Assembly: GCA_949283695.1 (NCBI GenBank)
Contig: CASDTX010000004.1
Location: 20,545 to 84,544, forward strand
Length of the DNA: 64,000 nt
DNA from: an uncultured Eubacteriales bacterium
Lineage (GTDB): Bacteria > Bacillota > Clostridia > Lachnospirales > Lachnospiraceae
Direction of reading: 5' to 3'
Positions 4,130 through 23,925 of the stretch are shown piece after piece (position 1 is the first letter of the stretch; every line of letters begins with the position of its first letter). Made by a program: the position numbers and the translations under genes. The notes beneath the pieces are model-generated. The model did not search any database, was not told where the DNA came from, and saw only the letters and a list, made by a program, of their open reading frames with translations.

Positions 4130-4407
4130 AAATACGTGAAAAATGTATTTCAAATGAGAAATAAATGAAAAAATAGAGAATAAATTGAAAATTCAGGAGT
4201 GAGCGTAGTGCCCATCTTGGAAAAAGCAGCGAAAAATGCGGATTTTCGCGGATAAATGGAGATAAAATCAGCGGCGGGAAGAGGAGAGAAAGTAAGAGAG
4301 GAAAGGAACCAACGTGCACGCACAAACAGCAGAAATTCACGAAAATATCGAAAAAACGCCAGATTGAAGAAAAAAATTCAAGTATATTCCAAATATGAAG
4401 AAAAACA

Positions 4408-4462
4408 TTCATTTTTATTCATATTTATTCCATATACTTTCCAGTTTGCCTTATGTTATACT
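4408..4462 (+). promoter_or_regulatory. Promoter region of the first ANL gene, shared with the second
   Basis: TTCATTTTT at 4408-4416 lies exactly 49 bases before a -10 box TATACT (4457-4462). The second ANL gene has the same two elements at the same distance (8131 and 8180), and about half of the intervening positions match. No good -35 box is present in either, which suggests activator dependence. Confidence 0.55.
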
Positions 4463-4524
4463 GACCGAGTTCATTGAGATATTGAGAAAACACAAGATAT
4501 ATAAATAGAAGCTATCAACCATTC

Positions 4525-4560
4525 AATCAATGGAATCAATGGAATCAATGGAATCAATGG
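4525..4560. repeat. Four tandem copies of a 9 bp repeat
   Basis: AATCAATGG is repeated four times without change (4525-4533, 4534-4542, 4543-4551, 4552-4560). It lies in the untranslated leader between the promoter (-10 at 4457) and the first ANL gene. Copy number could vary by slippage. Confidence 0.9.
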
Positions 4561-4616
4561 ACGGTTAACTTAGCACGTAAACGATTGATTTTGTGGAGTT
4601 TTAAGGAGAAAGAAAA

Positions 4617-6377
4617 ATGAGTAATGCAAGTATGACGGGGAAACCGAGTGTAGATCGTCCGTGGCTGCAGTATTATCCGGAACCGCTGAAGAAGATTCAG
4701 GCTCCGGAGTGCACGGTGAAAGAGTACCTGAAGATGAACTGCCCGGGCGAAGATGTTGCGGCGATGGATTTCTACGGGAGCGAGATTCTGTGGAGCACAG
4801 TATTTGAGAAGGCAGAAGCTGCTGCGCGTTCTCTGCGGGCGGTAGGATTTAAAGAAGGGGATCAGATCCCGGTATTTCTTTCTTCTGTGCCGGAATTTAT
4901 TTATATTCTTTTGGCAGCTGAGCAGATCGGCGCGTCTCTGCTGTGCCGCGACAACACCCTGAAGGAGAACGTGGAGGCGGTTCAGAAATCAGGCGCGAAA
5001 GCGATTATTGCTCAGGATTACCTGTCTCAGAAAGAACTGGGAAGATATCTGTCGGATTCAGAAGTTGAGAAAGTGATTCTGATTGATGCGTGCCAGTCCT
5101 GCAGCCGTGAAGATCTGCCGGATTACATCCGCAGAAACCTGGACAGCAAATATCCGGAAGAGAAGGCACATGGCCCGAAGACAATGAACTGGGACGAGTT
5201 TCTTGCTCTTGGCGAGAGCTACACAGGTGTGGTTGATGCTCCGGTGGATGTGAACCGTCCGCTGTTCCGCGCGTATACAAGCGGTTCTACCGGCCCGTCC
5301 AAGCAGGTAATTCATTCTGCTCATACCATGATTTCTGTCATTGCGCAGATGAACTTCTACGCAGGCGGCGATGATTATCGCCCGACATGGATGGTAACAG
5401 CACTTCCGCCGGCACTGGTGGCTGTAGTGGTTGCGATGGAGTTGATGCCGCTGGCGTCCAACAAGCTGCTGATCCTGAATCCGTATGTTGCGGTTGAAGA
5501 CGTGGATCTGGAACTGATGCGCCGCCGTCCGAATTCCTGGCCGCTCATCCCGATGTTTATCGAGACTGTCATGCGCAACGGCCGTATTCCGGATGACTAT
5601 GATCTGTCCCACCTGACCGCGGCAGGTGCCGGATCGGAATCTTACAATAACAACCAGCTGATGCGTGCACAGAAGTTCGTGGAGGCTCATAACTGCCACA
5701 TCCGTTTCACAACAGGTTATGGAAACAGTGAGGCAGGTTCCAATGTAACACTGCCGATGTCTCCGTATCCGATGGGAAATGGAAATGTGGGTGTTCCGAC
5801 GATTCTGAATGTGATCAGTATCTTTGAGCCTGGCACACAGAACGAGCTTACATATAATCAGATGGGTGAGATCTGCGTCAGCGGACCTGGAGTCATGCTT
5901 GGATATGATAATGAAGAAGCGACAGCGAAGACAATCCAGATCCATGAGGATGGCATGAGATGGCTGCATACCGGTGATATCGGATATATGAACGAAGATG
6001 GAGTTCTCTATGTTCAGACCAGAGGCAAAGCTCCGCGCTATGGCGGCGGAGACCTGGCAACCCTTCCGATGGAAAACCTGGTAGCAGACGCGAATATCGC
6101 AGGAATTGACGACGAGTTCTTCGTAGTTGTTCCGGACAGCGAGCACGCGGGATGCTTCCTGCCGTACCTGTATGTAGTACTCAATGACGGATATACGATT
6201 GAAGATATTGAGGACGAGGTTAGAGCATGCCTGGAAGACTATATGCAGCCGGTTGAGATTATTGAACTTCCGGAGCGTCCGTTCTTCCACTTCAAGACGA
6301 ACCGGATCGGTCTGACGAAGATGCTTCTTTCTGAGAAGCTTCAGAAGACAGCTGCGCTGAATAAGGCGAAAGCATAA
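4617..6377 (+). CDS. ANL-superfamily adenylate-forming protein, paralog A (acyl-CoA ligase-like)
   Basis: A 586-residue cytoplasmic protein of the acyl-CoA synthetase/AMP-binding fold. Core motifs are clear: the P-loop TSGSTGPSK (221-229), GYGNSEAG (A5, 367-374), HTGDIGY with the ribose-binding Asp (A7, 451-457) and a variant A8/hinge RGKAPRYGGGDLATLP (469-484). The A10 region reads KTNRIGLTK (560-568), so the usual Gly-Lys, whose Lys catalyses adenylation, appears as Ile-Gly. Start ATG follows AAGGAG. The gene is monocistronic and ends at a strong terminator. The paralog at 8264 is nearly collinear with it. The substrate is unknown; a carboxylic acid is expected from the fold, and activity is uncertain because of A10. 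Confidence 0.85.
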   Translation: MSNASMTGKPSVDRPWLQYYPEPLKKIQAPECTVKEYLKMNCPGEDVAAMDFYGSEILWSTVFEKAEAAARSLRAVGFKEGDQIPVFLSSVPEFIYILLAAEQIGASLLCRDNTLKENVEAVQKSGAKAIIAQDYLSQKELGRYLSDSEVEKVILIDACQSCSREDLPDYIRRNLDSKYPEEKAHGPKTMNWDEFLALGESYTGVVDAPVDVNRPLFRAYTSGSTGPSKQVIHSAHTMISVIAQMNFYAGGDDYRPTWMVTALPPALVAVVVAMELMPLASNKLLILNPYVAVEDVDLELMRRRPNSWPLIPMFIETVMRNGRIPDDYDLSHLTAAGAGSESYNNNQLMRAQKFVEAHNCHIRFTTGYGNSEAGSNVTLPMSPYPMGNGNVGVPTILNVISIFEPGTQNELTYNQMGEICVSGPGVMLGYDNEEATAKTIQIHEDGMRWLHTGDIGYMNEDGVLYVQTRGKAPRYGGGDLATLPMENLVADANIAGIDDEFFVVVPDSEHAGCFLPYLYVVLNDGYTIEDIEDEVRACLEDYMQPVEIIELPERPFFHFKTNRIGLTKMLLSEKLQKTAALNKAKA

Positions 6378-6438
6378 TAAGAAGGAAGAGAAGATCAAGA
6401 GACTGGGTTTGGGAAACTGTCAGTCGAAGATAATAGAG

Positions 6439-6470
6439 AAGGAGATGTGAAAAAATCACATCTCCTTTTT
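6439..6470 (+). terminator. Strong intrinsic terminator after ANL paralog A
   Basis: A perfect 12 bp stem, AAGGAGATGTGA / TCACATCTCCTT, with an A5 loop, runs straight into a T-run. It separates the ANL gene from the regulator gene. Confidence 0.93.
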
Positions 6471-6551
6471 GAATTTTGACAGAAAATTGAATTTTTCTGT
6501 TAAAAAAGTGTAAAGAATGTTAAAATTTGAAAAAATAGGGGGAAAATAGGA

Positions 6552-6580
6552 TTGCCGTGTTGAAGGAAGCGGAGTAAAAT
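6552..6580 (+). promoter_or_regulatory. Promoter of the HTH regulator-like gene
   Basis: TTGCCG (6552-6557), a 17-base spacer and TAAAAT (6575-6580). A second possible -35, a perfect TTGACA at 6476, lacks a good partner. Confidence 0.6.
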
Positions 6581-6627
6581 GAATAGAAATGACAAAAACA
6601 GCTTTTTAGCTATGAGGGGTATGACAA

Positions 6628-8088
6628 ATGAACGAAAAGAATAGATTCAGCAAGCTGCTGAAGCATTTGATGTCGGCTGCTGAAGTGAAGAACTATACAC
6701 TTGCGCAGGAGCTTCAGTATGACGTGTCCTATATCAGCAAATGGACAGGCGGACAGATGATTCCGTCGGAAAAGTATGCGTCAAAAATCCTGAAAGGGAT
6801 CAGCGAGTGTATTGTCATGCGGTGCAGTGACGAGGCCGCGGAAGGACTGATGGAGGAATACCGGGTGGACAGCCGGGAGTATTTGAAGCAGGCGGTTCTG
6901 GATAATCTTGAAGCGGAGTACAGCTATGTCCGGGAGCTTCAGAACAGCTCAGGGACAGATACAACACCGGCAATGCAGTTCCGGGCAGAGCTGAAGCTTG
7001 CACAGTTTGTCTCAAAAATGCGGCATCCGGTTCTGCGCCGGGTGAGCGATCTCGACATTGTAGGTGTGTTTGATATTCTGGCTATGGCACGGGAATATCA
7101 GCTTCAGATCACGGAAGCCAACAACAAGCATGTTCCCACAGGAAAATGGTATCAGGATGTGCATTATTCGATGGTAATCGATGTGAACAAGGACCGCCTG
7201 GATTATGCCCACGATATGATTTTCCTTGTGGATATGCTGGACAGAAACCGGTGTATTGACTTCTCGCTGTACGGGAACACCAAGGCGTCGGGAAAGGCTG
7301 TGTTTGTAGTCGGGACCGACTACATGATCTCGGGGATGCTGATTAGCAAAGATCTGTGTGTATCCGTAGTGACCAGCGAAAATCCGGAGAACTGCAAAAC
7401 AATGTACCGGAATATGAAAGGAATGTGCAGTCAGGAGGACCTGCTTTTCCGCAAGACATCGATGCGGGAAGTACTGTTAAAGCACGAGTATGTTCACGGG
7501 CTGTTTGCCCTCCGGCAGCAGTGGGTTGTAGGTCATTTGACAGAGCATTTCCTGCCGGAAGATCTGTTTGAGGAGATTACTGCCCAGCTGGACAAAGGAG
7601 AAGAAGGGACTCCGCCGCTGGAGGAACTCCGCAGTATCCATAAGATCGCGAGAAATGTAGTTGAAAACTTCAAAATCAATCTGCTGCTCTACCGGACTGC
7701 GTTCTATAACCTGGTGGTTGATAATGAACTGGATTTTTTCAACGTTAAGATCAAGCTCACGCAGAAGCAGATCATCCGATGCCTGGAACACTTTATTGAA
7801 CTGTGCAGGGATCATTCCGGGCTGGAAATCAAGATGGTGCCGGGAAGGCTGATCTCAAATATGGATTATGGAACCAAACACTGCGTCTTTCTGAGCGATA
7901 CAATCTCTCATATTCGTCTGGACGGAGAATACAACAACATGTATGTGGTGAACCGCAGGGATATGAAGGAGGCATTCACAAAGACGTTCTACGAATTCTG
8001 GGAAAACAGATCCGATACTTTGATTACGGATAAACAGACAATTATTGCGAACATTGAGCATGTGCTCAGCGGAATTCGGGGGGAATAA
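6628..8088 (+). CDS. HTH (XRE-like) regulator-type protein between the two ANL paralogs
   Basis: 486 residues. The first about 65 look like a helix-turn-helix domain: LAQELQYDVSYISKWTGG gives turn and recognition helices, followed by PSEKYASKILKGIS. The remaining about 420 residues have no motif I recognise. They are soluble, helix-rich, with few cysteines and no signal peptide, and read like a large sensor domain. The start ATG follows GAGGGG. The gene has its own promoter and is bounded by ANL genes with matching upstream boxes, so control of both ANL genes is the obvious inference. Direct DNA binding, the ligand and the sign of regulation are unknown. It is larger than most XRE repressors. 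Confidence 0.72.
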   Translation: MNEKNRFSKLLKHLMSAAEVKNYTLAQELQYDVSYISKWTGGQMIPSEKYASKILKGISECIVMRCSDEAAEGLMEEYRVDSREYLKQAVLDNLEAEYSYVRELQNSSGTDTTPAMQFRAELKLAQFVSKMRHPVLRRVSDLDIVGVFDILAMAREYQLQITEANNKHVPTGKWYQDVHYSMVIDVNKDRLDYAHDMIFLVDMLDRNRCIDFSLYGNTKASGKAVFVVGTDYMISGMLISKDLCVSVVTSENPENCKTMYRNMKGMCSQEDLLFRKTSMREVLLKHEYVHGLFALRQQWVVGHLTEHFLPEDLFEEITAQLDKGEEGTPPLEELRSIHKIARNVVENFKINLLLYRTAFYNLVVDNELDFFNVKIKLTQKQIIRCLEHFIELCRDHSGLEIKMVPGRLISNMDYGTKHCVFLSDTISHIRLDGEYNNMYVVNRRDMKEAFTKTFYEFWENRSDTLITDKQTIIANIEHVLSGIRGE

Positions 8089-8130
8089 CTGACAGATAAA
8101 TTCAACGAAATCTAAAAAGCGGCAGATTTA

Positions 8131-8185
8131 TTCATTTTTCTGCACGTTTCTTCTCTATATTTTCACTTTTGGAGTGTGCTATACT
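8131..8185 (+). promoter_or_regulatory. Promoter region of the second ANL gene
   Basis: TTCATTTTT (8131-8139) and the -10 box TATACT (8180-8185) are 49 bases apart, exactly as upstream of paralog A. A pyrimidine-rich stretch with CTATATTTTCAC lies between. The transcript leader is about 75 bases. Confidence 0.55.
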
Positions 8186-8263
8186 GGCTGGGTCCATAGT
8201 TTGATCAGGAGCACCGATCTGACATGTACAGACAGAGAGAAAATGTAAGGGAGAACGAGAACT

Positions 8264-10027
8264 ATGAGTGATGGAAAGATGACAGGAAAGCCGAGTATTG
8301 ACCGGCCGTGGATCAAATATTATCCGGAGCCGCTGCGCAAGATCCAGGCGCCGGACTGTACGGTGAAAGAGTATTTGAAGCTGAACTGCCCAGGTGAAGA
8401 TGTTGCGGCCATGGAGTTCTACGGAAATCAGATTTCATGGAAGACTGTATTTGAACAGGCGGAGGCAGTTGCCCGCTCTCTGAGAGCGTCAGGATTTAAG
8501 GAAGGGGATCAGATTCCGGTATTTATTTCTTCTGTACCGGAGTTTATTTACCTGCTTTTGGCGGCTGAACAGATTGGTGCGTCTCTGCTGTGCCGCGACA
8601 ACACACTGAGAGAGAATGTAGAGGCAGTTCAGAAGGCGGGAACGAAAGCAATGTTTGCCCATGACTTCCTGTCACAGGACGAGCTTGGAAGCTACCTGGC
8701 GAACACCGCGGTTGAGAAGGTTATTCTTCTCGATGCGTGCCAGTCCTGCAGACGCGAAGATATGCCGGATTATATTCAGAAAAGCCTGGACAGCAGATAT
8801 CCGGATGAGAAAGCACACGGATCGAAGACCCTTACCTGGGATGAGTTCCTTGCTCTGGGTGAGAGTTATACCGGAGTGGTGGATGCTCCAAGAGATATAA
8901 ACCGCCCGCTTTTCCGCGCTTATACCAGCGGATCTACCGGTCCGTCCAAACAGGTGATTCACTCTGCCCGGACCATGCTGGCTGTTATTGCGCAGATGAA
9001 TTTCTATGGCGGATCAGACGAGTATCGTCCGACATGGCTTGTAGCCGTGCTTCCGCCGTGTCTGGTGGCAGTTGTGGTATCCATGCTTCTGATGCCGCTG
9101 GCTTCCAATAAGCTGCTGATCCTTTCGCCTTATTGTGCAATCGAAGACCTGGATCTGGAGATGATGCGCTACCGTCCCAATTCGTGGGCGCTGATTCCGC
9201 TCTTTATCGAGACGATTATGCGCAGCAAACGAATTCCTGCCGACTATGATATGTCTCATCTGGCAGCTGCAGGTGCAGGGTCTGAGTCATACAACAACAA
9301 TCAGAGAAAACGTACAGAGAAGTTCCTGGCGTCCCATAACTGCAAGATCCGTTTCACATCAGGCTACGGAAGCAGTGAGAGCGGATCTACGGTTGCGCTG
9401 CCGATGACACCGCATCCGCTGGGAAACGGAAACGTAGGCGTTCCGACGATTCTCAATGTGGTCAGTATCTTCGAGCCGGGCACACAGAACGAGCTTACAT
9501 ATAATCAGCTTGGTGAGATCTGCATCAGCGGCCCTGGCGTCATGCTCGGATATGACGATCCGGAGGCGACGGCCAAAGCACTTCAGGTACATGAAGACGG
9601 CATGACATGGCTCCACAGCGGAGACATCGGATATATGAATGAAGACGGTGTGATCTACGTGCTGACCAGGGGCAAGGCTCCGCGCTATGGCGGCGGTGAC
9701 CTGGCGACTCTTCCGATGGAGAACCGGCTGGCGGACGCAGAGATCGAAGGCATCGATGATGAATTTTTCGTAGTCGTACCGGACAAAGATCATCCGGGAT
9801 GTTTCCTGCCGTACCTGTATGTAGTGCTCCATGAAGGATACAGCATTGCAGATATCGAGGAGCCGGTGAGAAATGCCCTGGAAGAATACATGCAGCCGGT
9901 TGAGATTTTCGAACTTCCGGAGCGTCCGTTCTTCCATTATAAGACGAACCGGATCGGTCTGACGAAGGAACTGCTTGCAGGTGCAGCGGAGAAACCGCAG
10001 GCTGTGCTGAAAGAAGCGAAAGCATAA
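8264..10027 (+). CDS. ANL-superfamily adenylate-forming protein, paralog B
   Basis: 587 residues, aligning with paralog A from end to end without obvious gaps and identical at most positions by eye. It shares TSGSTGPSK (A3), HSGDIGYMNEDG (A7), RGKAPRYGGGDLATLP (A8) and the altered A10 KTNRIGLTK. Differences are concentrated in the substrate-pocket half (for example AVLPPCLVAVVVSMLL against TALPPALVAVVVAMEL, and GYGSSESGS against GYGNSEAGS). The pair may therefore handle related but different acids. The start ATG follows AGGGAG, and the gene ends at its own terminator. It is not a pseudogene: the frame and all motifs are intact. Local duplication, possibly around the regulator gene, explains the layout. 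Confidence 0.85.
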   Translation: MSDGKMTGKPSIDRPWIKYYPEPLRKIQAPDCTVKEYLKLNCPGEDVAAMEFYGNQISWKTVFEQAEAVARSLRASGFKEGDQIPVFISSVPEFIYLLLAAEQIGASLLCRDNTLRENVEAVQKAGTKAMFAHDFLSQDELGSYLANTAVEKVILLDACQSCRREDMPDYIQKSLDSRYPDEKAHGSKTLTWDEFLALGESYTGVVDAPRDINRPLFRAYTSGSTGPSKQVIHSARTMLAVIAQMNFYGGSDEYRPTWLVAVLPPCLVAVVVSMLLMPLASNKLLILSPYCAIEDLDLEMMRYRPNSWALIPLFIETIMRSKRIPADYDMSHLAAAGAGSESYNNNQRKRTEKFLASHNCKIRFTSGYGSSESGSTVALPMTPHPLGNGNVGVPTILNVVSIFEPGTQNELTYNQLGEICISGPGVMLGYDDPEATAKALQVHEDGMTWLHSGDIGYMNEDGVIYVLTRGKAPRYGGGDLATLPMENRLADAEIEGIDDEFFVVVPDKDHPGCFLPYLYVVLHEGYSIADIEEPVRNALEEYMQPVEIFELPERPFFHYKTNRIGLTKELLAGAAEKPQAVLKEAKA

Positions 10028-14937: not shown

Positions 14938-16363
14938 AATGTCAGCGGCTGTGAAAACCTCCGTCTGGTTTACATTCTGCCAGTTCCTGCAGCGGGGGAT
15001 TTCATTTATTACGGTTCCTGTATTTACCAGGCTTCTGACAACAGAAGAGTATGGAATCTGCAATATTTATTTTACCTGGTTCGAGGTATTCCTTCTGTTT
15101 ACCTCGCTGAAGATCCCTTATGAAGGACTCAATAACGGGCTGATTCGTTATGAGGAAGACAAGGACGGCTATACATCCTCAGTCATGGGGCTGATTATGG
15201 TGATGACTGCCGGAGCCATGGGGGTCTACTTGCTGTTCCGCAGGTGGATTGATCCGTTTACAGGACTGAATGGGTTCCTCATGGTGCTGATGTTTATTCA
15301 GCTAATGTTTAACCCGCCGCTGATGCTGTGGACGAACCGGGAACGATTTGATTTCCGATATCAGAAGCCGGTGGCAGTGACGGCCGTGAGTACGGTGCTG
15401 AATCTTCTGGTGACCGTGCTGGCCGTTGTGAGTACCAGCTATAAGGCAGAGGCCAGGATCATCGGCTCTGCGGCTGTGCAGACATTTTTCGGAGTGGTCT
15501 TTGCAGCGGTGCTTCTGGCAAAGGGACGGACGCTCTTTCGGAAGGAATACTGGAGCTTTGCCCTGCGGTTTAACCTTCCGCTGATTTTTTATTATATTTC
15601 TCAGATGATTCTGAATCAGTCAGACCGCATCCTGATTAATTATTTTCAGGGCAGCGGGAAGGCGGCAGTGTACAGCGTGGCTTATTCCGCGGCGACGCTG
15701 ATGCTTCTCGTGCTGTCTGCTGTCAATGGATCTTTTAATCCTTGGATGTACAAGAAACTGAAGGCAGGGGACAGCCGGTCCGTGGGGCGCAGCGCATCGG
15801 TTCTGTGTCTTATGGTGGGGGCAGCCACGTTTCTGGTGAGTGCCCTGGCTCCGGATCTGGTGCGGATCCTGGCCACGGAGGCGTATCTGGAAGCGATCTG
15901 GATTATTGCTCCTGTGTCAGCCAGTGTCTTTTTTATTTTTCTCTATATGGTGTTTGCCAATGTGGAGATGTATTACGGAGAGAACAGCGGGATCTCGGTG
16001 ATCTCGATTGTTTGTTCCGTGCTGAATATTGTTCTGAATATTGTGTTCATTCCCAGGTATGGATATTTTGCCGCGGGGTGGACAACGCTGGTCAGTTATA
16101 TCCTGCTGACGATCCTTCATTATATTCTCATGAGGCGGGCCTGCAGGCGGAACCGGATGACAGAGCGGATCTTCCGGGAGAAAGAACTGCTGGCGATCTC
16201 TGTGGGAGTGGTCCTCTCGTCCTTCGGGGCGATGGGGCTGTATCGCGCAGGCTGGCTTCGGTATGGGGCGCTGGCAGTACTGGCTGTGCTGCTGTTTGGA
16301 TTCCGGAAGCAGGTGTTTCAGGTGCTGAAACAGATGGGGAAAGGAGAAGAACATGCAAAGTGA
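14906..16363 (+). CDS. Wzx-like polysaccharide flippase (MOP superfamily)
   Basis: About 485 residues and 12-14 membrane spans. The N-terminal signature FLQRGISFITVPVFTRLLTTEEYGI is typical of PST/MOP exporters that flip lipid-linked repeat units. Further segments include LIFYYISQMILNQSDRILINYF, usual at the middle of these proteins. The frame is open back to 14816 inside the polymerase gene. The product KLNLRKKYREMS from GTG 14906 gives the common family start and has AAGGACGG upstream; ATG 14939 is an alternative. The overlap with the upstream gene is about 32 bases. It pairs with the Wzy-like protein before it. Confidence 0.87.
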   Translation: MKLNLRKKYREMSAAVKTSVWFTFCQFLQRGISFITVPVFTRLLTTEEYGICNIYFTWFEVFLLFTSLKIPYEGLNNGLIRYEEDKDGYTSSVMGLIMVMTAGAMGVYLLFRRWIDPFTGLNGFLMVLMFIQLMFNPPLMLWTNRERFDFRYQKPVAVTAVSTVLNLLVTVLAVVSTSYKAEARIIGSAAVQTFFGVVFAAVLLAKGRTLFRKEYWSFALRFNLPLIFYYISQMILNQSDRILINYFQGSGKAAVYSVAYSAATLMLLVLSAVNGSFNPWMYKKLKAGDSRSVGRSASVLCLMVGAATFLVSALAPDLVRILATEAYLEAIWIIAPVSASVFFIFLYMVFANVEMYYGENSGISVISIVCSVLNIVLNIVFIPRYGYFAAGWTTLVSYILLTILHYILMRRACRRNRMTERIFREKELLAISVGVVLSSFGAMGLYRAGWLRYGALAVLAVLLFGFRKQVFQVLKQMGKGEEHAK

Positions 16364-17489
16364 GCAGAAGAGGGGGATGAGCCTCGGATATTTTAATCTG
16401 GCCCGCGGCGTGGGCATGATTCTGATCGTACTGGGTCATTCCATCAACCTGTATCTGACTCCGTCTGTGAATCTGAGCCCGGATTCGGCACCCGCCCTGT
16501 TCTCCGGTGCGGGCGGCGTGCTGGGCGGAGGGATGATGGCGGCGTTCTTCATGATCAGCGGCATCGGATTCTTCCGGCGCAGCTTTCGGAAATGCGTCTC
16601 CATCCAGCGGCGGCTTCTGCTGAAGCCTTACTGTCTGGCAGCGGCAGCGGTCCTTCTGACGAAGCTCCTTCTCGCGCTGGTGAAGAGACGTTCTTTCTTC
16701 GCGCATGGCGGCGAACTGGTACTTACCTATCTGCTGGGGCTGAACGCAGAAGGAGGCGGAGAGTTCCTGGGGATTCCCGTGGAGTCTGTGAGTATCTTTT
16801 GGTTTGTTCTGGCCCTGTTCGGCGGATGGATCATTTATAACACGATTTCCTTTCTTGATTCAGAGGTGCTGCGGTATGGATGTGCGGCCGTGTGCGCGGT
16901 ACTCGGATATCAGATGACATTGATCTCCAGGGTCTGGCCTTACTGTATCCACATTGCCTTTCTTGCGGCGGGATACCTTGCGGCGGGGGAGTTCATTAAG
17001 AAGCGGGGACTGCTGGACCGGCGGATCCGTGCCGGATGGTGGATCCTGATCTGGGCGGTGCTTGCAGTGTGTGCGGCTTTCGGGCAGGTGAATATCGTGG
17101 CCGGGGTCTGGAGGCTGGGACTTCTGGATGTGCTGGGGTCTTTCTGTGCAGGATTCGTGATTCTGAAGGGATATGCCCTGTTTATGCGCAGGGAACATGA
17201 CGGGAAGGCAGCGGGGATTCTGGAAGAGATCGGGTTTCATTCGATCTGGATCATCTGCCTGCATGCCTATGAGAAAGTGATTTTCCCGTGGTACCGGGTG
17301 GCGGCAGCGCTTCCCGACAGTCCGTGGCTGGGGGTGGCTTTGTGTTTCGGAGGAAGATGCGCAGTGATGTATCTCCTCTATAAGATTGTGACCGGTGCGG
17401 CGGGGATGGTTCGGGACAGAAGGTTCGGAAGGTCCGGGCTGAGCGGCCGGATCAGCGAAGAAGAGAAGAAACAATCGGATGGGGAATAA
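16353..17489 (+). CDS. Acyltransferase-3 family membrane protein
   Basis: 378 residues with about ten hydrophobic segments. The N-terminal ARGVGMILIVLGHSINLY carries the conserved histidine of the acyltransferase-3 (OafA/NodX-like) family, which moves acyl groups across or onto surface sugars. The start ATG has AAAGGAG and overlaps the flippase gene by 11 bases. It is followed immediately by an acyl-activating enzyme and a carrier protein, so it is likely to accept or pass on the acyl group they supply. The C-terminus is charged and cytoplasmic. Acyl group and target sugar are unknown. Confidence 0.85.
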   Translation: MQSEQKRGMSLGYFNLARGVGMILIVLGHSINLYLTPSVNLSPDSAPALFSGAGGVLGGGMMAAFFMISGIGFFRRSFRKCVSIQRRLLLKPYCLAAAAVLLTKLLLALVKRRSFFAHGGELVLTYLLGLNAEGGGEFLGIPVESVSIFWFVLALFGGWIIYNTISFLDSEVLRYGCAAVCAVLGYQMTLISRVWPYCIHIAFLAAGYLAAGEFIKKRGLLDRRIRAGWWILIWAVLAVCAAFGQVNIVAGVWRLGLLDVLGSFCAGFVILKGYALFMRREHDGKAAGILEEIGFHSIWIICLHAYEKVIFPWYRVAAALPDSPWLGVALCFGGRCAVMYLLYKIVTGAAGMVRDRRFGRSGLSGRISEEEKKQSDGE

Positions 17490-17504
17490 GAGGAGGAAGA
17501 AGGA

Positions 17505-19046
17505 ATGAGTGAAGAGAAACGGATTCCGGATACTATGCGGCAGGTGCTGGAGGAACTTGAGGACAGGATGCAGGGAAGACGGGTATTCCGCTATATGGCT
17601 GAGCAGGAAAGCGAAAGCCCGGAGGACGGCTGGAACAGCATGCAGATAAAGGAGATATCCGGGGAACAGTTCTTCCGGGATATCAAGGGAACCGCAGATC
17701 TTATAAGAAGAAACGGACTTGCCGGAACACATATCGGGATCATGGGGGCCAACAGTTACGGCTGGATCATGGCTCTCTGCGCGATCTTCTGGAGCGGGTC
17801 TGTGGCGGTGCTTCTGGATCACGAGACAGATCCGGCTGACCTCAGAGACCGGGCGCAGCAGGTCAGCCTTGCAGGAATGATCTGTGACAGTGAGGCTTCG
17901 GAGACTGTGCGGGCTGCGGGACTCTCTGGTCAGATCCGCAGCCTGGAGATTCGGGAACTTCTGATAGAATCCAGAGAAATGCGGGACAGTGAAACAGACT
18001 GTGCGGCTGCTGCGGAAAAGCGGGCGGAGGATCTGGCGTGCATCTTCTTTACATCGGGAACGACCGGCGGCAGCAAGGCGGTCATGATGTCAGAGCATGG
18101 ACTGGCAGCGGGAATCTGTCACCGCATTCAGAACCGGAAGTTTCGCGCCATTCTGGCGGTCCTCCCGTTTCATCACATCTCCGGCTTCTCATCTGCCCTG
18201 AATGCCCTGTACCTGGGAGCGGAAGTCTGTCTGGCGGAACAGCAGAAATACTTCTATAAATATCTGGAAACCATGAAGCCGGATTATGTATTTGTGGTTC
18301 CATCCATGCTGCGAATGCTGGCGCGGAAACTGAAGAACGGAGGACCAAACGGCAGACTGCTGGGATGGGACCTGCATATGATCAACTGCGGGGGCGCTGC
18401 CTTCTGTCCGGAATTTCTGCAGATGCTTCTGGACCGGAACATTACAGTCATGCAGGGATATGGAGCTTCAGAGGCCGGAGCGATCGGGCTCCTCTGGGAG
18501 ATGACCACAGATCACCCGGATACGATCGGCAAGCCGCCGGCCGGTCTGGAGATCAAGATCGTGGATGATGAACTGTGGATGAAGAGCGAAGCGGTTATGA
18601 TGGGCTATTATGGCGATGAAGAGGGGACGAGGAAGGTTCTGAGGGACGGCTGGTATATCACAGGGGATCTGTGCCGGATGGACGCGGACGGATACCTGTA
18701 TCTGACAGGGCGGAAGAAGAATCTGATCATTCTCTCCAACGGGGAGAATATCAGCCCGGAGGAGATCGAGGGAAGGCTGTATCAGTATGAGGAGATCCGT
18801 GAGGCTGTAGTGCAGGCGGAGGGCGATCTGCTGACAGCTTCCATCTATCCTGCGTATCCCCGGGACTGCCCGGCGGAAGAACAGGAACGGATCCGGGAGA
18901 AGATCCGGCGAGAGGCCGAGGAGTATAATCATTCTGTGCCGGTGTACAGACAGATTCGGAAAGTACACTTTCTGGAAGAACCTGTGGGGAAGACGGCCAG
19001 CGGCAAACTGATCCGCCGCAGCGTGCCGGGAGGAGAAAGACAATGA
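17505..19046 (+). CDS. Acyl-CoA/acyl-carrier-protein ligase (ANL superfamily)
   Basis: 513 residues with a full, canonical motif set, unlike the two ANL paralogs upstream in the window: FTSGTTGGSKA (A3, about 182-192), GYGASEAG (A5), YITGDLCRMDADGYL (A7), GRKKNLIILSNGENISPEEIE (A8) and KTASGKLIRR (A10, with the catalytic Lys). It should adenylate a carboxylic acid and transfer it to a phosphopantetheine thiol. The carrier protein gene overlaps its stop codon, so that protein is the probable acceptor. AGGAGGAAG precedes the ATG. It probably forms an acylation module with the membrane acyltransferase before it. Confidence 0.9.
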   Translation: MSEEKRIPDTMRQVLEELEDRMQGRRVFRYMAEQESESPEDGWNSMQIKEISGEQFFRDIKGTADLIRRNGLAGTHIGIMGANSYGWIMALCAIFWSGSVAVLLDHETDPADLRDRAQQVSLAGMICDSEASETVRAAGLSGQIRSLEIRELLIESREMRDSETDCAAAAEKRAEDLACIFFTSGTTGGSKAVMMSEHGLAAGICHRIQNRKFRAILAVLPFHHISGFSSALNALYLGAEVCLAEQQKYFYKYLETMKPDYVFVVPSMLRMLARKLKNGGPNGRLLGWDLHMINCGGAAFCPEFLQMLLDRNITVMQGYGASEAGAIGLLWEMTTDHPDTIGKPPAGLEIKIVDDELWMKSEAVMMGYYGDEEGTRKVLRDGWYITGDLCRMDADGYLYLTGRKKNLIILSNGENISPEEIEGRLYQYEEIREAVVQAEGDLLTASIYPAYPRDCPAEEQERIREKIRREAEEYNHSVPVYRQIRKVHFLEEPVGKTASGKLIRRSVPGGERQ

Positions 19047-19309
19047 AAATAACAGTGAGTGAATTGAAGGCAAAAATTATAGAAGAAATCGCGGTATCCA
19101 CGGAAACGGATCTTGAGATCACAGAGGAAACGGCTCTCTATGAAGATATGGGACTGGCGTCCATGGAAGCCTATGTTCTGCTTTGTGATCTGGAAGAGAC
19201 CTTTCGGGTAAGGATTCAGGCTTCCTCCCTGCGGCATGTACGCACCGTGGGAGACCTCTGCGAACTGGTGGTCGATGCGGTGAGACAGCAGGGGAGGAAA
19301 GGCAGATAA
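19043..19309 (+). CDS. Acyl carrier protein-like phosphopantetheine protein
   Basis: 88 residues, acidic. The phosphopantetheine attachment serine is in DMGLASMEAY (Ser40), matching the D-x-G-x-x-S motif. The helical pattern of the ACP fold follows, with LCDLEETFRVRI as helix II and the loop after it. ATG overlaps the ligase stop (ATGA), giving coupled translation and suggesting a 1:1 working pair. It is not the housekeeping ACP, whose sequence around the serine is usually DSLD. Comparable trios occur in D-alanylation and polysaccharide acylation systems. Confidence 0.87.
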   Translation: MKITVSELKAKIIEEIAVSTETDLEITEETALYEDMGLASMEAYVLLCDLEETFRVRIQASSLRHVRTVGDLCELVVDAVRQQGRKGR

Positions 19310-19581: not shown

Positions 19582-22500
19582 ATGAAGAGAAACACAAAGC
19601 GTTTTCTGAGTCTGTTTCTTTCCGTTCCGATGGTGTTAAGCCTGACCGCTATGCCGGTTTACGCAACACCGACAGACAGTGAAGTTGTCGAAGAGCAGGA
19701 AGATACAGACGCAGCAGTTCCGGAGACGCAGGAAGCTGAAGACGAGGCAGCACCGGAACAGGCTCAGGAAGACACTGCGGATGCAGCGTCCGGAGCGGAT
19801 ACTGTGATCACAGTGGAAGATGCATTCTCCACATTCACGGTTGATACGTCCAAGATCGAGGCGCCGGAGATCAACGTCAATGAAGCGCAGCTGAGCGAGC
19901 AGGATCTGGCAGCCATTGATGAAAATGATCCTGAGATCGCAACCGTGAAGGACGAGCTGGAGAATATCAAGGTCCTGAATGAAGACGGCGAATCTGTCGT
20001 ACTGACAGAGGAGCAGATCCAGACCGTTCTGGGAATGTACACCCAGTACCAGCAGAACTGGATCGCCAACGCGGATGTCCTTGGAGTGCAGGCACCGTTT
20101 TATCTGCAGTTCAATGACAACGGGGAAGACGGACTTGGAGTTCTCGGAGAGATGCTTACGCTGGCAGGTGTTTCCGTGGATGACGTAAGAAACGGGAACT
20201 ATACATATGATAACCTGACCGGCATGATCATGAACTTCCTGTACGGCGATATGTACGGCGTGGAGTTCTACGGCGATGCAGTGAAGGCAAAAAGGGATGA
20301 GGCTCTTCAGACTGTGGAGAATTCCGGAGCGCAGACGGACGTTCAGAAGCTGCTTGTGCTCAACAGCTGGCTGGCACAGAACAACATCTTCGATATGTCT
20401 TATATTATGAACCAGATGGGCGACGAGCCGATCATGACAGCGGAGAATCCGCAGCAGCATGAGCATTATCAGGAGATCTATGACAGACTGGCAGAAGTAT
20501 ATCGTCCGCAGATCGAGGCACAGTTCCATGATCAGTTCTATGCGATCGTAGAGGAACAGGCTCGTCAGTCCGCTTATGAGGAAGCGATTGCAGGAATTGT
20601 AGCGCAGGGCTATATGGAGTCGAATCCGGATGCGACCCAGGAGGACGCAGAGGCTTACGGCCAGCAGTTTGTAGAGGCGAATCAGGAAGCAATCGCAGAA
20701 GATCCGAAGGGATTTGTTAAGGAGAATTTCGGAGCTGCAATAGCGGATCAGGTTGAAGCAGGCATCGAGGAAGGGCTTGCAGATCCGGAGACTGTTGAGC
20801 AGCTGGAAGCAGCGACTCAGCAGGTGATGGACATGCCGATGGACGAATTCGGCGGGATGTCAGCGAACCAGATGATCCCGGTATACGTTGACCAGGCAGC
20901 AGCAGGTCTGACAGAGGGTATCCTGGGATACTGGGAAGGAAACCACATCGGAGCTCTTGCAGAAGGCAAGTCAGTATGTATGGGTTATGCCAAGGCTTTC
21001 GCATATCTGGTACAGTGCATGTATCCAGAGTACTACGGTGTGAACGGTGCAGGCACAGATATGACAGTTGCTTCCAACTGGAAGACAGCGAAGGATCTTT
21101 ACTATGACGCAGACGGCAATCTGGATATCAATGCAGATTACAATGTAGACCTTGTAAGGATCACATTCCAGGCGAATGTAACAATGTACGGCGAACCGCA
21201 GCCGGATTTCAACTCTGACCATTTCTGGAATGCAGTGAAGATTGACGGAAAATGGTATTATGTTGATCCCTGCTACACAGACGTATTCTCAGAGGTTATG
21301 AACCGTGACCGTGTGGAGACTGACGGATACATGAATCACACTTACTTCATGATCAGCCACACATCCATCGCGGAGATGTTCGACGGAAACTACAAAGAGA
21401 TCAAGACTCTGTATGCAGATGCTGCGACAAATACAGACTATGAGGGAAGCTGGGTTTCCCGTGTTGTCAGCAACGTTTATTCAGACGGAACATATATCTA
21501 CTATATGTACGATTCCACAGATATGCTTGACCTGATGAGACAGTTCAACAGCAGCGACGGAAATTACCAGAACATGGATATCGAGGATGCTGTGTATAAG
21601 ATCGTGCGCCATAAGATGTCTGACAGCGATCTTGGAGACGGCGATACGAATTACGAAACCCTGATTGATTTTAACTCCGGTGATTCTGTGACCGTTCTGA
21701 ATCCGTCCACAGGTGAGATGGAAGAGAACGAGATGCTGACAGAGCTGTTTGCACAGTTTGAGGAAGAACAGACTGTTTATCCGGCGATCCACACGACACC
21801 GGTACTCTACAACGGAAAGTTATATTTCAACGTTTCCAACAGCATTTTAAGCTATGATCTTTCCTCCGGCGAAGTAGCTGAAGTGAAAGAATACAACACC
21901 GTGAACGCGGTAAGAGATGACAGCGAAGTGTTCGGTGCAATGGCATTCGATGTGACATCCAGTGCAGACGGCGCTGACTTCACATTTGAGAATCATCCGA
22001 TCGCCGGCATGACGCTGAAGAACGACGGCAAGCTTTATGTTGATATCGCGACGAACCTTTCTTACATTGCAGGAAGAGACCCGCACGACTATACGGATGC
22101 ATCAAGCTATGGCTATGAGTTCGAAGAGAGCAATTACAACCCGAATTACAATGAATATGCATCCCAGATGATGGATGACGAGGGAATCTCGGACGACATG
22201 CTTGAGCAGCTGGGATATAAGCGTGAGATTAATGACAACTCTGAGTTCATGTGGGTTGCAAACGCAGTTGATACAGTAGATATGGCACACCTTGGAGGAA
22301 CATCCCATGATTACAGTGCAGTGACGGTAGCTCCGTACTGTGACCGTGACGGCTTCACAGAGAACCGCTGTACAACCTGCGGCGCGATCGAAGCAGACAG
22401 CCGTACCGTAGATGAAGGTTCTGCATGCGACGGACATCACTATGTACTGTTCCATGAAGAGTACTATACAAAGGATGCGAACGAGCAGTGGAACGAAGGC

Positions 22501-23925
22501 GATACCTATGTGTGTACAAGATGTGGATTCTCAATCAGCGAGCCCACAGAGCCGAAGGAAAATTCCTTTGTTACAGGCGATGACTATGAAGAGCAGGTAG
22601 CTGAGTACGAGAAGAACAAGGCGATCTACGATGAGGCAGTTGCAACTGCAGGACATACATACACAGCGTCAGACGCGCAGTGGAGCGAAGACTACACAAC
22701 CGTGACATTCCAGAACCTGACCTGTTCAGCCGGATGCGCAGAGAAACAGCACGCTCTGGACTGCCTGCTGAATGACACAACCATTTCTGCAGCTCTCGAG
22801 TCACCGGTTACAGCAAATACAAAGATAACCAATGCAGAGGGAACCTGTGCAGAGGGTGTGACAACAACATACGAAGCTTCTGCAGAAGTTGACGGACAGA
22901 AGTACACTGTAAGCACAACGAAGACATGGGAAGCCGGAGATCACAATTACGTGAACGGCAAGTGTACGAAGTGCGGTGAGGCTGATCCGGACGCGCTGGT
23001 AGCACCAGAGATCGAGTCCGTATACAGCAAGCTTCAGACAACAGCTAAAGTTACATGGACACCGGTTGAAAATGCTGTGGGATATCAGCTGTACCGTGCA
23101 GAGAGCGCAGATGCTGCGGATGCGGACTGGACACTGACAAAGACGATCACAGGCGAGAATATTGACCAGTATACCAAGGATGACACGATCCAGTATACAA
23201 ATGTTGACCTTACGGTAGGAACAACATATTACTATAAGGTTCGTGCATTTGCATTGGTAAGCGGTGCAGCGGATGCATCGGATGAGGCTTCAAGGATCTA
23301 TTCTCCTTTCTCAGATGTGAAGTACATGCCGGCGGCAGTGGTATTTGGAGATGTATACAGTGCGGCGACGGATAAGGTACGTCTGAACTGGAATGAAGTG
23401 AAAGGTGCTCACGGCTATCAGATCTGGTGTAAAGCTGAGGATGAAGACGAGTTCAGTATTGTTAAGACACTTGGCGACAGAGGCAATGAACTGACCAATA
23501 ATCAGGGCGCGACGACTGCATACAGCAAGTATGAGCTGGAAGCAGGAAAAACTTATACCTTCAAAATGCGTGCGTTCATGATTCCTGGAGATGGAACAAA
23601 GGTATTCGGTGCTTATTCTGATGAGGTAACTGTAGCTGTAATGCCAGAGAATACCAAGATTACAGTAAGCAGTACAAAAGCCGGAAAAGCTGATGTTACA
23701 TGGAACACTGTTGCCGGTGCAGACGGATATCAGATTTGGATGCAGGAAGGCAGCGGTGAGTATAAGATTGTGAAGACTGTTGAAAACGGAAGCACAAAAT
23801 CTTATACAAAGTCCAGCCTGACAAGTGGAGCAACCTATAAGTTTAAAGTACGTGCATATACAGAAGCAGGCGGCAAGAAAACGTTTGGAGCGTATTCTAA
23901 TGAAGCTAGCGTTAAGGTAAAATAG
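19582..23925 (+). CDS. Large secreted transglutaminase-like protein with C-terminal fibronectin-III repeats
   Basis: 1447 residues. A Sec signal peptide (KRNTKRF, hydrophobic core, cleavage near VYA-TPTDS) is followed by an acidic region. A transglutaminase-like papain-fold core has Cys466 (GKSVCMGYAKAF), His547 (SDHFWNAVKI) and Asp562 (WYYVDPCYTD). Three cysteine-pair segments follow (NRCTTCG, YVCTRCG, GKCTKCG) at about 930-1135. Three FN3-like repeats from about 1140 to the end share TAKVTW/YQ-W/YYKVRAF patterns. There is no LPXTG anchor, so it is free or held by its repeats. AAAGGGG precedes ATG. Role unknown: peptidase or cross-linker at the surface. It is a paralog of the gene at 29834. 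Confidence 0.85.
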   Translation: MKRNTKRFLSLFLSVPMVLSLTAMPVYATPTDSEVVEEQEDTDAAVPETQEAEDEAAPEQAQEDTADAASGADTVITVEDAFSTFTVDTSKIEAPEINVNEAQLSEQDLAAIDENDPEIATVKDELENIKVLNEDGESVVLTEEQIQTVLGMYTQYQQNWIANADVLGVQAPFYLQFNDNGEDGLGVLGEMLTLAGVSVDDVRNGNYTYDNLTGMIMNFLYGDMYGVEFYGDAVKAKRDEALQTVENSGAQTDVQKLLVLNSWLAQNNIFDMSYIMNQMGDEPIMTAENPQQHEHYQEIYDRLAEVYRPQIEAQFHDQFYAIVEEQARQSAYEEAIAGIVAQGYMESNPDATQEDAEAYGQQFVEANQEAIAEDPKGFVKENFGAAIADQVEAGIEEGLADPETVEQLEAATQQVMDMPMDEFGGMSANQMIPVYVDQAAAGLTEGILGYWEGNHIGALAEGKSVCMGYAKAFAYLVQCMYPEYYGVNGAGTDMTVASNWKTAKDLYYDADGNLDINADYNVDLVRITFQANVTMYGEPQPDFNSDHFWNAVKIDGKWYYVDPCYTDVFSEVMNRDRVETDGYMNHTYFMISHTSIAEMFDGNYKEIKTLYADAATNTDYEGSWVSRVVSNVYSDGTYIYYMYDSTDMLDLMRQFNSSDGNYQNMDIEDAVYKIVRHKMSDSDLGDGDTNYETLIDFNSGDSVTVLNPSTGEMEENEMLTELFAQFEEEQTVYPAIHTTPVLYNGKLYFNVSNSILSYDLSSGEVAEVKEYNTVNAVRDDSEVFGAMAFDVTSSADGADFTFENHPIAGMTLKNDGKLYVDIATNLSYIAGRDPHDYTDASSYGYEFEESNYNPNYNEYASQMMDDEGISDDMLEQLGYKREINDNSEFMWVANAVDTVDMAHLGGTSHDYSAVTVAPYCDRDGFTENRCTTCGAIEADSRTVDEGSACDGHHYVLFHEEYYTKDANEQWNEGDTYVCTRCGFSISEPTEPKENSFVTGDDYEEQVAEYEKNKAIYDEAVATAGHTYTASDAQWSEDYTTVTFQNLTCSAGCAEKQHALDCLLNDTTISAALESPVTANTKITNAEGTCAEGVTTTYEASAEVDGQKYTVSTTKTWEAGDHNYVNGKCTKCGEADPDALVAPEIESVYSKLQTTAKVTWTPVENAVGYQLYRAESADAADADWTLTKTITGENIDQYTKDDTIQYTNVDLTVGTTYYYKVRAFALVSGAADASDEASRIYSPFSDVKYMPAAVVFGDVYSAATDKVRLNWNEVKGAHGYQIWCKAEDEDEFSIVKTLGDRGNELTNNQGATTAYSKYELEAGKTYTFKMRAFMIPGDGTKVFGAYSDEVTVAVMPENTKITVSSTKAGKADVTWNTVAGADGYQIWMQEGSGEYKIVKTVENGSTKSYTKSSLTSGATYKFKVRAYTEAGGKKTFGAYSNEASVKVK

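Follow-up and report, generated by a model that had tools for sequence, protein, structure and literature searches.

In a 64,000-nucleotide stretch of DNA from an uncultured bacterium of the family Lachnospiraceae (hereafter the window; taken from contig 4 of an assembly of 2.9 Mb and 66 contigs that is estimated to be 79% complete), two closely similar genes for adenylate-forming enzymes of the ANL superfamily, ANL1 and ANL2, flank a gene for a 486-residue helix-turn-helix (HTH) protein, and the question arises what joins these genes functionally. From our point of view, they belong to a module that is undescribed and built of known folds, whose conserved set, as judged from sequence comparison, is the regulator, one or more ANL genes and a giant secreted transglutaminase-like protein. 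Our favoured reading, held with middling confidence, makes the HTH protein a one-component regulator and probably an activator: it would sense a ligand, attach to regularly spaced repeats in front of the ANL genes and switch on the ligases, which would serve a function at the cell surface. The features on which the argument is built are the following (all but the hairpin on the plus strand):

4407-4474, plus strand: ANL1 promoter block, with TTC at 4408, 4418, 4428 and 4439, an extended -10 element TGTTATACT with its hexamer at 4457-4462, and no -35 consensus listed
4617-6377, plus strand: ANL1, an adenylate-forming enzyme of 586 residues (acyl/aryl-acid ligase superfamily; open reading frame, Pfam AMP-binding)
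6439-6467, listed by the scan on the minus strand only: 12-pair hairpin after ANL1, a possible transcription terminator
6628-8088, plus strand: HTH protein of 486 residues, with the HTH at about residues 6-65, a helical linker and two alpha/beta lobes resembling phospholipase D (PLD) that lack the HKD motif (open reading frame, predicted fold)
8130-8197, plus strand: ANL2 promoter block, with TTC at 8131, 8151 and 8162 and an extended -10 element TGCTATACT with its hexamer at 8180-8185
8264-10027, plus strand: ANL2, a paralog of ANL1 with 587 residues and 78% identity (open reading frame, Pfam AMP-binding)
19582-23925, plus strand: secreted protein of 1447 residues, with what looks by eye like a signal sequence, a transglutaminase-like core, a beta-rich part and fn3

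The open reading frames confirm the two ANL genes and the HTH gene, all on the plus strand, as a preliminary description of this DNA had placed them. A search confined to an open library of papers found none on a system of HTH protein, ANL enzyme and secreted protein. Passages of the description of M. catenae, an organism from chicken caecum, contain the terms 'transglutaminase', 'AMP-dependent' and 'acyl-CoA' zero times (PMC8086573). The close relatives that bear loci L024-L027 and L029 look like chicken-gut species.

Co-occurrence and gene order

Within the genus (58 genomes; cut-offs E 0.001 for the HTH protein, 1e-60 for ANL and 1e-20 for the secreted core), the three proteins are observed in exactly the same seven genomes. 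A sample spread over the family (299 genomes, our own included) holds relatives of the HTH protein at E 0.001 or better in 13 genomes, seven of which carry a close one (E 2e-75 or better; G000, G025, G032, G104, G202, G237 and G243), and an ANL at the family threshold of E 1e-100 or better is likewise present in seven (G000, G025, G032, G127, G202, G237 and G243). The secreted core occurs in 15 genomes of this sample at E 1e-5 and in 10 at E 1e-50, namely the seven ANL-bearing ones plus G058, G183 and G258. When our own genome is left aside (298 genomes), ANL and HTH protein are found in six each and shared by five (hypergeometric value 1.9e-9), and ANL and secreted core in six and nine, shared by six (9e-11), both values resting on cut-offs set after seeing the lists and being uncorrected for kinship. 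None of 390 other genomes of a class-wide sample, some family members among them, holds an ANL at E 1e-80.

The preliminary description took the twin ANL genes around the regulator as the unit, which did not survive the comparison of loci. Among the 15 close HTH loci of full length that were counted, one per genome (L024/L025 and L026/L027 being near-copies, and the distant relatives L015-L023 left out of the count), the exact order ANL-HTH-ANL occurs once, in the window itself, and the triple as a conserved unit was rejected. What does recur is an HTH gene beside at least one ANL gene, which is found in ten of the 15 loci (the window with its two ANLs, L024, L025, L026, L027, L066, L054, L057, L062 and L067), the other five loci being L028, L029, L059, L053 and L065. 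Two HTH fragments (G323, G350) also adjoin an ANL, and in the draft genomes G340, G350, G202 and G032 ANLs lie on other contigs than the HTH gene. Copy number and place of the ANL genes vary among the loci, and the ten neighbours scanned differ as well: GNAT, ABC transporter, MFS, C39 peptidase, GMP synthase and flavodoxin at unlinked copies, M20 peptidase and MarR at linked ones. A common operon partner of the unlinked ANLs was seen neither among these ten neighbours nor in the gene maps.

The secreted protein and the ANL enzymes

The core of the secreted protein has an invariant Cys, His and Asp in all 15 rows of its alignment, which from their motif context may be read as a triad. Pfam Transglut_core matches 5 of the 15 members at E up to 1 (best 0.016, below cut-off), and the best match both by profile (E 0.0036) and by fold (9crn; E 0.0058, probability 1.00, TM-scores 0.12/0.25) is TglA of S. 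pyogenes, the structure model of the core having a predicted local distance difference test score (pLDDT) of 82. The core shares the Cys/His/Asp region with TglA; unlike transglutaminase-like proteins, however, the secreted protein has 1447 residues with long helical and beta-rich parts, and its E-values are weak and its TM-scores low. Its C-terminal parts vary, with fn3 in the window and ChW in L053.

Homologs of the secreted protein adjoin an HTH or ANL gene in L053, L062, L067 (one gene between), L056, L061 (one small open reading frame between) and L064, and a second class of ANL is involved in several of these: its gene overlaps that of the secreted protein in L056 and lies within about 300 bp of it in L061 and L064. 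An ANL-like gene for 625 residues (25% identical) stands beside the secreted-protein gene in L094, the secreted-protein gene of G025 is unlinked, and near those of G183 (L095) and G258 (L093) no HTH or ANL relative was seen. As a side observation, the frame of a second-class ANL in L063 (6761-9043, G237) runs on into fn3-like sequence to give 760 residues; a deletion may have fused an ANL there to the tail of a secreted transglutaminase-like protein.

Both window enzymes lie well above the Pfam AMP-binding cut-off of 29.9 (ANL1 with 130.1 bits, E 1.2e-37; ANL2 with 135.7 bits, E 2.4e-39), and the window holds three of the seven AMP-binding matches of the whole genome. Aligned with one gap, the two are identical at 459 of 587 positions, and the family as a whole is 44-87% identical to ANL1. 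In the tree, ANL1 groups with the ANL of M. catenae and the position of ANL2 is open within the same clade; because of this placement the two look like paralogs of some age, and a recent tandem duplication was rejected. A 16-row family alignment keeps invariant the stretches T221 S222 G223 T225 G226 K229, G367 Y368 G369 E372 and G453 D454, which belong to the P-loop, GYGxxE and TGD motifs of ANL enzymes. K560, a candidate for the A10 lysine, is invariant in the same alignment, but MAFFT places it opposite another Lys of the two outgroup enzymes; the Pfam AMP-binding_C match is below cut-off, and a C-terminal motif, ERPFFHFKTNRxGL, is private to the family.

Like 4-coumarate-CoA (coenzyme A) ligases and acyl-CoA synthetases, the ANLs have the AMP-binding domain, and their P-loop, GYGxSE and TGD regions align to 4CL2, whereas LPPALVAV stands opposite the LPLFH stretch of 4CL2. 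Unlike acyl-CoA synthetases, they carry a C-terminal motif of their own and, although 93 NCBIfam families match each ANL at E up to 1, the best 25 of these are all far below cut-off (top scores 133.5 and 139.3 bits against a cut-off of 705). The enzymes are predicted to activate a carboxylic acid with ATP, forming an adenylate and then probably a CoA thioester. Side observations concern copies of these genes: in L123 (10169-10759, G340) a decayed second ANL copy stands shortly after an intact one, so that ANL copies would seem to multiply and decay, and in L067 (10134-11645, G308) a second-class ANL without its C-terminal domain, probably decayed, stands beside an intact HTH gene.

What could such ligases be for? 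It is possible, if on the unlikely side, that they act on a dietary acid as acyl- or aryl-CoA ligases of the ordinary inducible kind, controlled by the HTH protein and unrelated to the secreted protein. Their nearest relatives in the PDB, the 4-coumarate-CoA ligases, would suit this explanation, as would the long-chain acyl-CoA ligases that lead the NCBIfam models far below cut-off, and the lack of a common neighbour among the neighbours of unlinked copies looked at. It accounts poorly, though, for the secreted core being present in all six other ANL-bearing genomes of the family sample, and for second-class ANL genes that overlap, or nearly adjoin, a secreted-protein gene (L056, L061, L064). 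Since the same genomes carry the giant secreted protein, we consider it probable that the activated acid, or the sensing of it, serves a function at the cell surface.

A phased repeat array before the ANL genes

If the HTH protein controls the ANL genes, their upstream regions should be the place to look. Both window promoters are observed to carry TTC units every 10-11 bp (in that of ANL2 the unit place at 8141 reads TGC), of which the last lies near the -35 position, and neither has a -35 box or is listed by a sigma-70 scan. The 68-nucleotide blocks at 4407-4474 and 8130-8197 are identical at 48 of 68 positions (71%) without a gap, against 136 of 230 (59%) at the four-fold degenerate sites of the two genes, and the matching promoters of the preliminary description are thereby borne out. 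A 27-nucleotide pattern drawn from these sites and their relatives occurs without mismatch at these two promoters only in the entire 2.9 Mb assembly.

The periodicity extends to other genomes. Across 14 upstream regions of class A ANL genes, pairs of the word TTC[ACT] are found 20 times at 10 bp, 13 times at 20 bp and 7 times at 30 bp, with shuffled means of 0.84 at 10 bp and 0.91 at 20 bp. As this word was picked after looking at the regions, word-independent checks were added: trinucleotide self-match over 13 regions peaks at lag 10 (z 7.8; lag 9, 5.6; lag 20, 2.8; lag 30, 3.2), and the leading tetramer at distances of 10, 20 or 30 bp is ATTC (20 against 0.34 expected), along with TTCA (11 against 0.64), TCAC (10 against 0.07), TTCC (6 against 0.13) and TTTT (16 against 4.2). 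In four regions not used for the choice of word, two of which (L110 and L113) are close relatives, TTC[ACT] pairs number 5 against 1.08, a value reached by 8 of 1000 shuffles, and TCA pairs, picked after viewing these regions, 10 against 0.92 (0 of 1000 shuffles). The signal is present at regulator-linked ANL genes (nine regions, 28 pairs at 10, 20 or 30 bp against 1.5) as well as at copies on other contigs than the regulator (eight regions, 16 pairs against 2.1), and two further unlinked copies in G350 show the array by inspection; 127 background upstream regions gave 28 TTC[ACT] pairs against 21, which 9 of 100 shuffles reach. Furthermore, 11 of 18 regions place at least two units 17-18, 27-29, 37-39 or 47-49 nucleotides before a -10-like hexamer with TG, in a scan that allowed up to two mismatches and in which L055 and L110 are loose fits.

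Composite patterns were also searched over 24 genomes, 12 with and 12 without the regulator. With one mismatch allowed they proved useless, matching many places in both groups. Pattern 1, in its exact form, hits seven places, the two window promoters and five elsewhere (G299, G309, G310, G351 and G014); pattern 2 hits three, all before ANL genes (C2 of G243, C9 and C55 of G025), which measures the rarity of the element and not its discovery, because these three sites had served to write the pattern. Another promoter-like stretch, conserved across the genus, came to light, which starts with TTTCCACTTTAA and ends in a TATACT hexamer (G299:C66:122395 and G309:C2:174456, with one-mismatch relatives in G311, G322, G323, G340, G350 and G351).

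The row of evenly spaced repeats before most ANL genes looks like the landing strip of the regulator. We infer that the N-terminal HTH binds head-to-tail to TTC units spaced by 10-11 bp, that is, by one helical turn, and that the protein most likely acts as an activator at the ANL promoters, since, where a -35 box would lie, these extended -10 promoters have the end of the array instead; it would thus switch on one or more stand-alone ANL genes. PhoP-type sites provide a precedent, as there activators bind direct repeats spaced by 10-11 bp that overlap the -35 region. Like those, the array consists of direct repeats that follow each other at intervals of one helical turn and lie at -35 in weak promoters; unlike those, it often has three to five units, and the protein belongs to a different family. 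Control of both window ANL genes by the HTH protein, as assumed in the preliminary description, is supported, not proven, by the phased array, by the co-occurrence and by the arrays at ANL genes on other contigs.

An unlikely alternative, in our opinion, is that the HTH protein is a repressor, lying along the array across the -35 region until a ligand binds its PLD-like lobes. The array does reach the -35 region, and a protein sitting there would stand in the way of RNA polymerase as well; many HTH proteins of the XRE type are repressors, but extended -10 promoters that have no -35 hexamer and escape a sigma-70 scan suit promoters in need of help.

The regulator

As to how an activator of this kind might sense its ligand, the sequence of the HTH protein gives few hints: Pfam at E up to 1 returned HTH_3 alone (residues 25-56, E 0.036, below cut-off), NCBIfam a single model at E 0.063, far below cut-off, and a comparison with PDB sequences no match up to E 10. 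An AlphaFold2 model (21-row alignment; pLDDT 88.4, predicted TM-score 0.83), which follows up the structure prediction proposed earlier for the regulator, suggests a two-lobed PLD-like fold. The top Foldseek ranks belong to the PLD superfamily, with vaccinia F13 at E 1.9e-6 and human PLD1/2 at E about 1e-3 and weaker, in alignments spanning 364-488 columns; HTH-domain matches reach a probability of 1.00, but at E 0.05 or more.

The HKD motif (HxKxxxxD/E) is present in none of 21 homologs of the HTH protein, and therefore no PLD-type catalysis is expected; in this, and in its low TM-scores, the protein differs from the PLD superfamily (vaccinia F13, human PLD1/2), which its predicted fold otherwise resembles. 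The likeliest reading of the model is that the C-terminal part is a dead PLD-like sensor akin to that of TrmB, in which two catalytically inactive lobes would sense a small ligand. TrmB-type regulators combine an HTH with an inactive PLD-like sugar-binding domain. The HTH protein likewise joins a presumably DNA-binding HTH to a PLD-like domain without HKD; unlike TrmB, its HTH seems to be XRE-like and not winged, and it has two PLD-like lobes within 486 residues. As the Pfam TrmB domains were not matched (no TrmB family among the matches up to E 1), we do not file it under TrmB. The earlier proposal that the protein senses a product or substrate of the ANL enzymes is supported in kind by the model, whose predicted fold would fit a sensor of some ligand.

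Several observations weigh against activation of the ANL genes by a PLD-like sensor protein at the array. With regard to the fold, the TM-scores given by Foldseek are no higher than 0.24 when taken by query length, which is low, and we therefore assign the protein to a fold class and not to a family; there is, besides, a weak match to the TrmB sugar-binding domain (2f5t; E 0.14, probability 0.93). With regard to co-occurrence, G104 has a 30%-identical HTH protein and no ANL at E 1e-100, and G127 a second-class ANL and no HTH protein. The promoter geometry is missing from 5 of the 18 regions (L060, L062, L052a, L052b and L113). In L114 a single unit is correctly placed, and in L024 the distances are right (17, 28 and 48) but the TG is missing. 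The background regions show a mild excess of [AGT]TCA (29 against 17; 1 of 100 shuffles), so that a mild general periodic tendency exists, and pattern 1, written from the window, missed the ANL promoters of other genus members. No array was found upstream of the HTH genes (six regions), the secreted-protein genes (seven) or the first glycosyltransferase genes (three), and the first two of these results give no hint that the HTH gene regulates itself or that the third component is under the same control. Lastly, the four upstream regions of second-class ANL genes (L056, L061, L064 and L067) are without an array although three genomes with this class (G243, G202 and G308) have the HTH gene, which in G308 even adjoins the truncated second-class ANL; control of that class by the HTH protein, if any, would therefore work otherwise.

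The adjoining polysaccharide locus

The HTH/ANL unit of the window lies directly upstream of a surface-polysaccharide locus with the following genes, given by start position where no range is stated:

10216: glycosyltransferase
11355: glycosyltransferase-like protein
12560: Stealth
14816: flippase
16353: acyltransferase-3
17505-19046, plus strand: third ANL of 513 residues, 21% identical to ANL1 and outside the array-bearing family
19043-19309, plus strand: acyl-carrier-like protein of 88 residues, whose gene starts within the last bases of the third ANL gene; its best NCBIfam match (E 1e-8) stays below cut-off
19582: the secreted protein

In six of the seven HTH-bearing genomes of the genus, the HTH gene heads such a locus, and in the window, G340 and G351 the secreted-protein gene stands in the same locus after acyltransferase-3, ANL and carrier-like protein. 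The statement that no pathway genes lie beside the ANL pair can thus not be upheld, and a self-contained unit is doubtful; the regulator's fold, the array as operator, the secreted partner and the polysaccharide locus were all absent from the preliminary description. The row of acyltransferase-3, ANL and overlapping acyl-carrier-like gene (16353-19309) in itself resembles a Dlt-like set of genes for acylating a surface polymer. Farther upstream, at 302-1453, the window encodes nspC, a carboxynorspermidine decarboxylase above the NCBIfam cut-off; with the gene directly upstream of nspC (L130, 5614-6834), a spermidine-type route stands next to the HTH/ANL module.

One could speculate that the genes have no common function and merely hitch-hike together in a variable, horizontally moving polysaccharide locus, which the patchiness of the module would allow, as would the fact that in the genus the HTH gene mostly heads one and the same locus. 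We regard this as improbable, because other genera have pairs of HTH and ANL or of HTH and secreted-protein genes without a polysaccharide locus (L053, L054, L057 and L062), and a second-class ANL adjoins the secreted-protein gene in three genera (L056, L061 and L064). More improbable still is that the HTH gene is a mere neighbour and that phased T-tracts, which are known to curve DNA when in phase with the helix, bend and strengthen the promoters without any protein operator, since TTTT, while enriched, is less so by ratio than ATTC, TTCA, TCAC and TTCC, the arrays of L057, L052a and L060 keep TTCC/TTCA and are poor in T-tracts, and HTH and ANL genes co-occur. A role in anti-phage defence was dropped, as PADLOC models gave no family at E up to 0.01 for the four proteins compared.

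Implications

Overall, the favoured reading of a probable activator at phased arrays joins, by co-occurrence, three protein groups of gut Lachnospiraceae, and it gives a concrete DNA element for HTH-PLD regulators, relatives of which, distant ones included, occur in 13 of 299 family genomes. A bolder version, which we put forward as doubtful, is that of an undescribed surface-assembly system of the Lachnospiraceae, composed of an HTH protein with a dead PLD-like sensor, phased arrays and orphan ANL enzymes, in which the activated acid would modify or serve the secreted protein and the polysaccharide. The ligand of the regulator and the acid of the ligase, if found, would probably turn out to be one molecule or two linked ones, and one biochemical experiment could therefore name both. 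The secreted core, which falls below the Pfam cut-offs, would be a new family of surface proteins.

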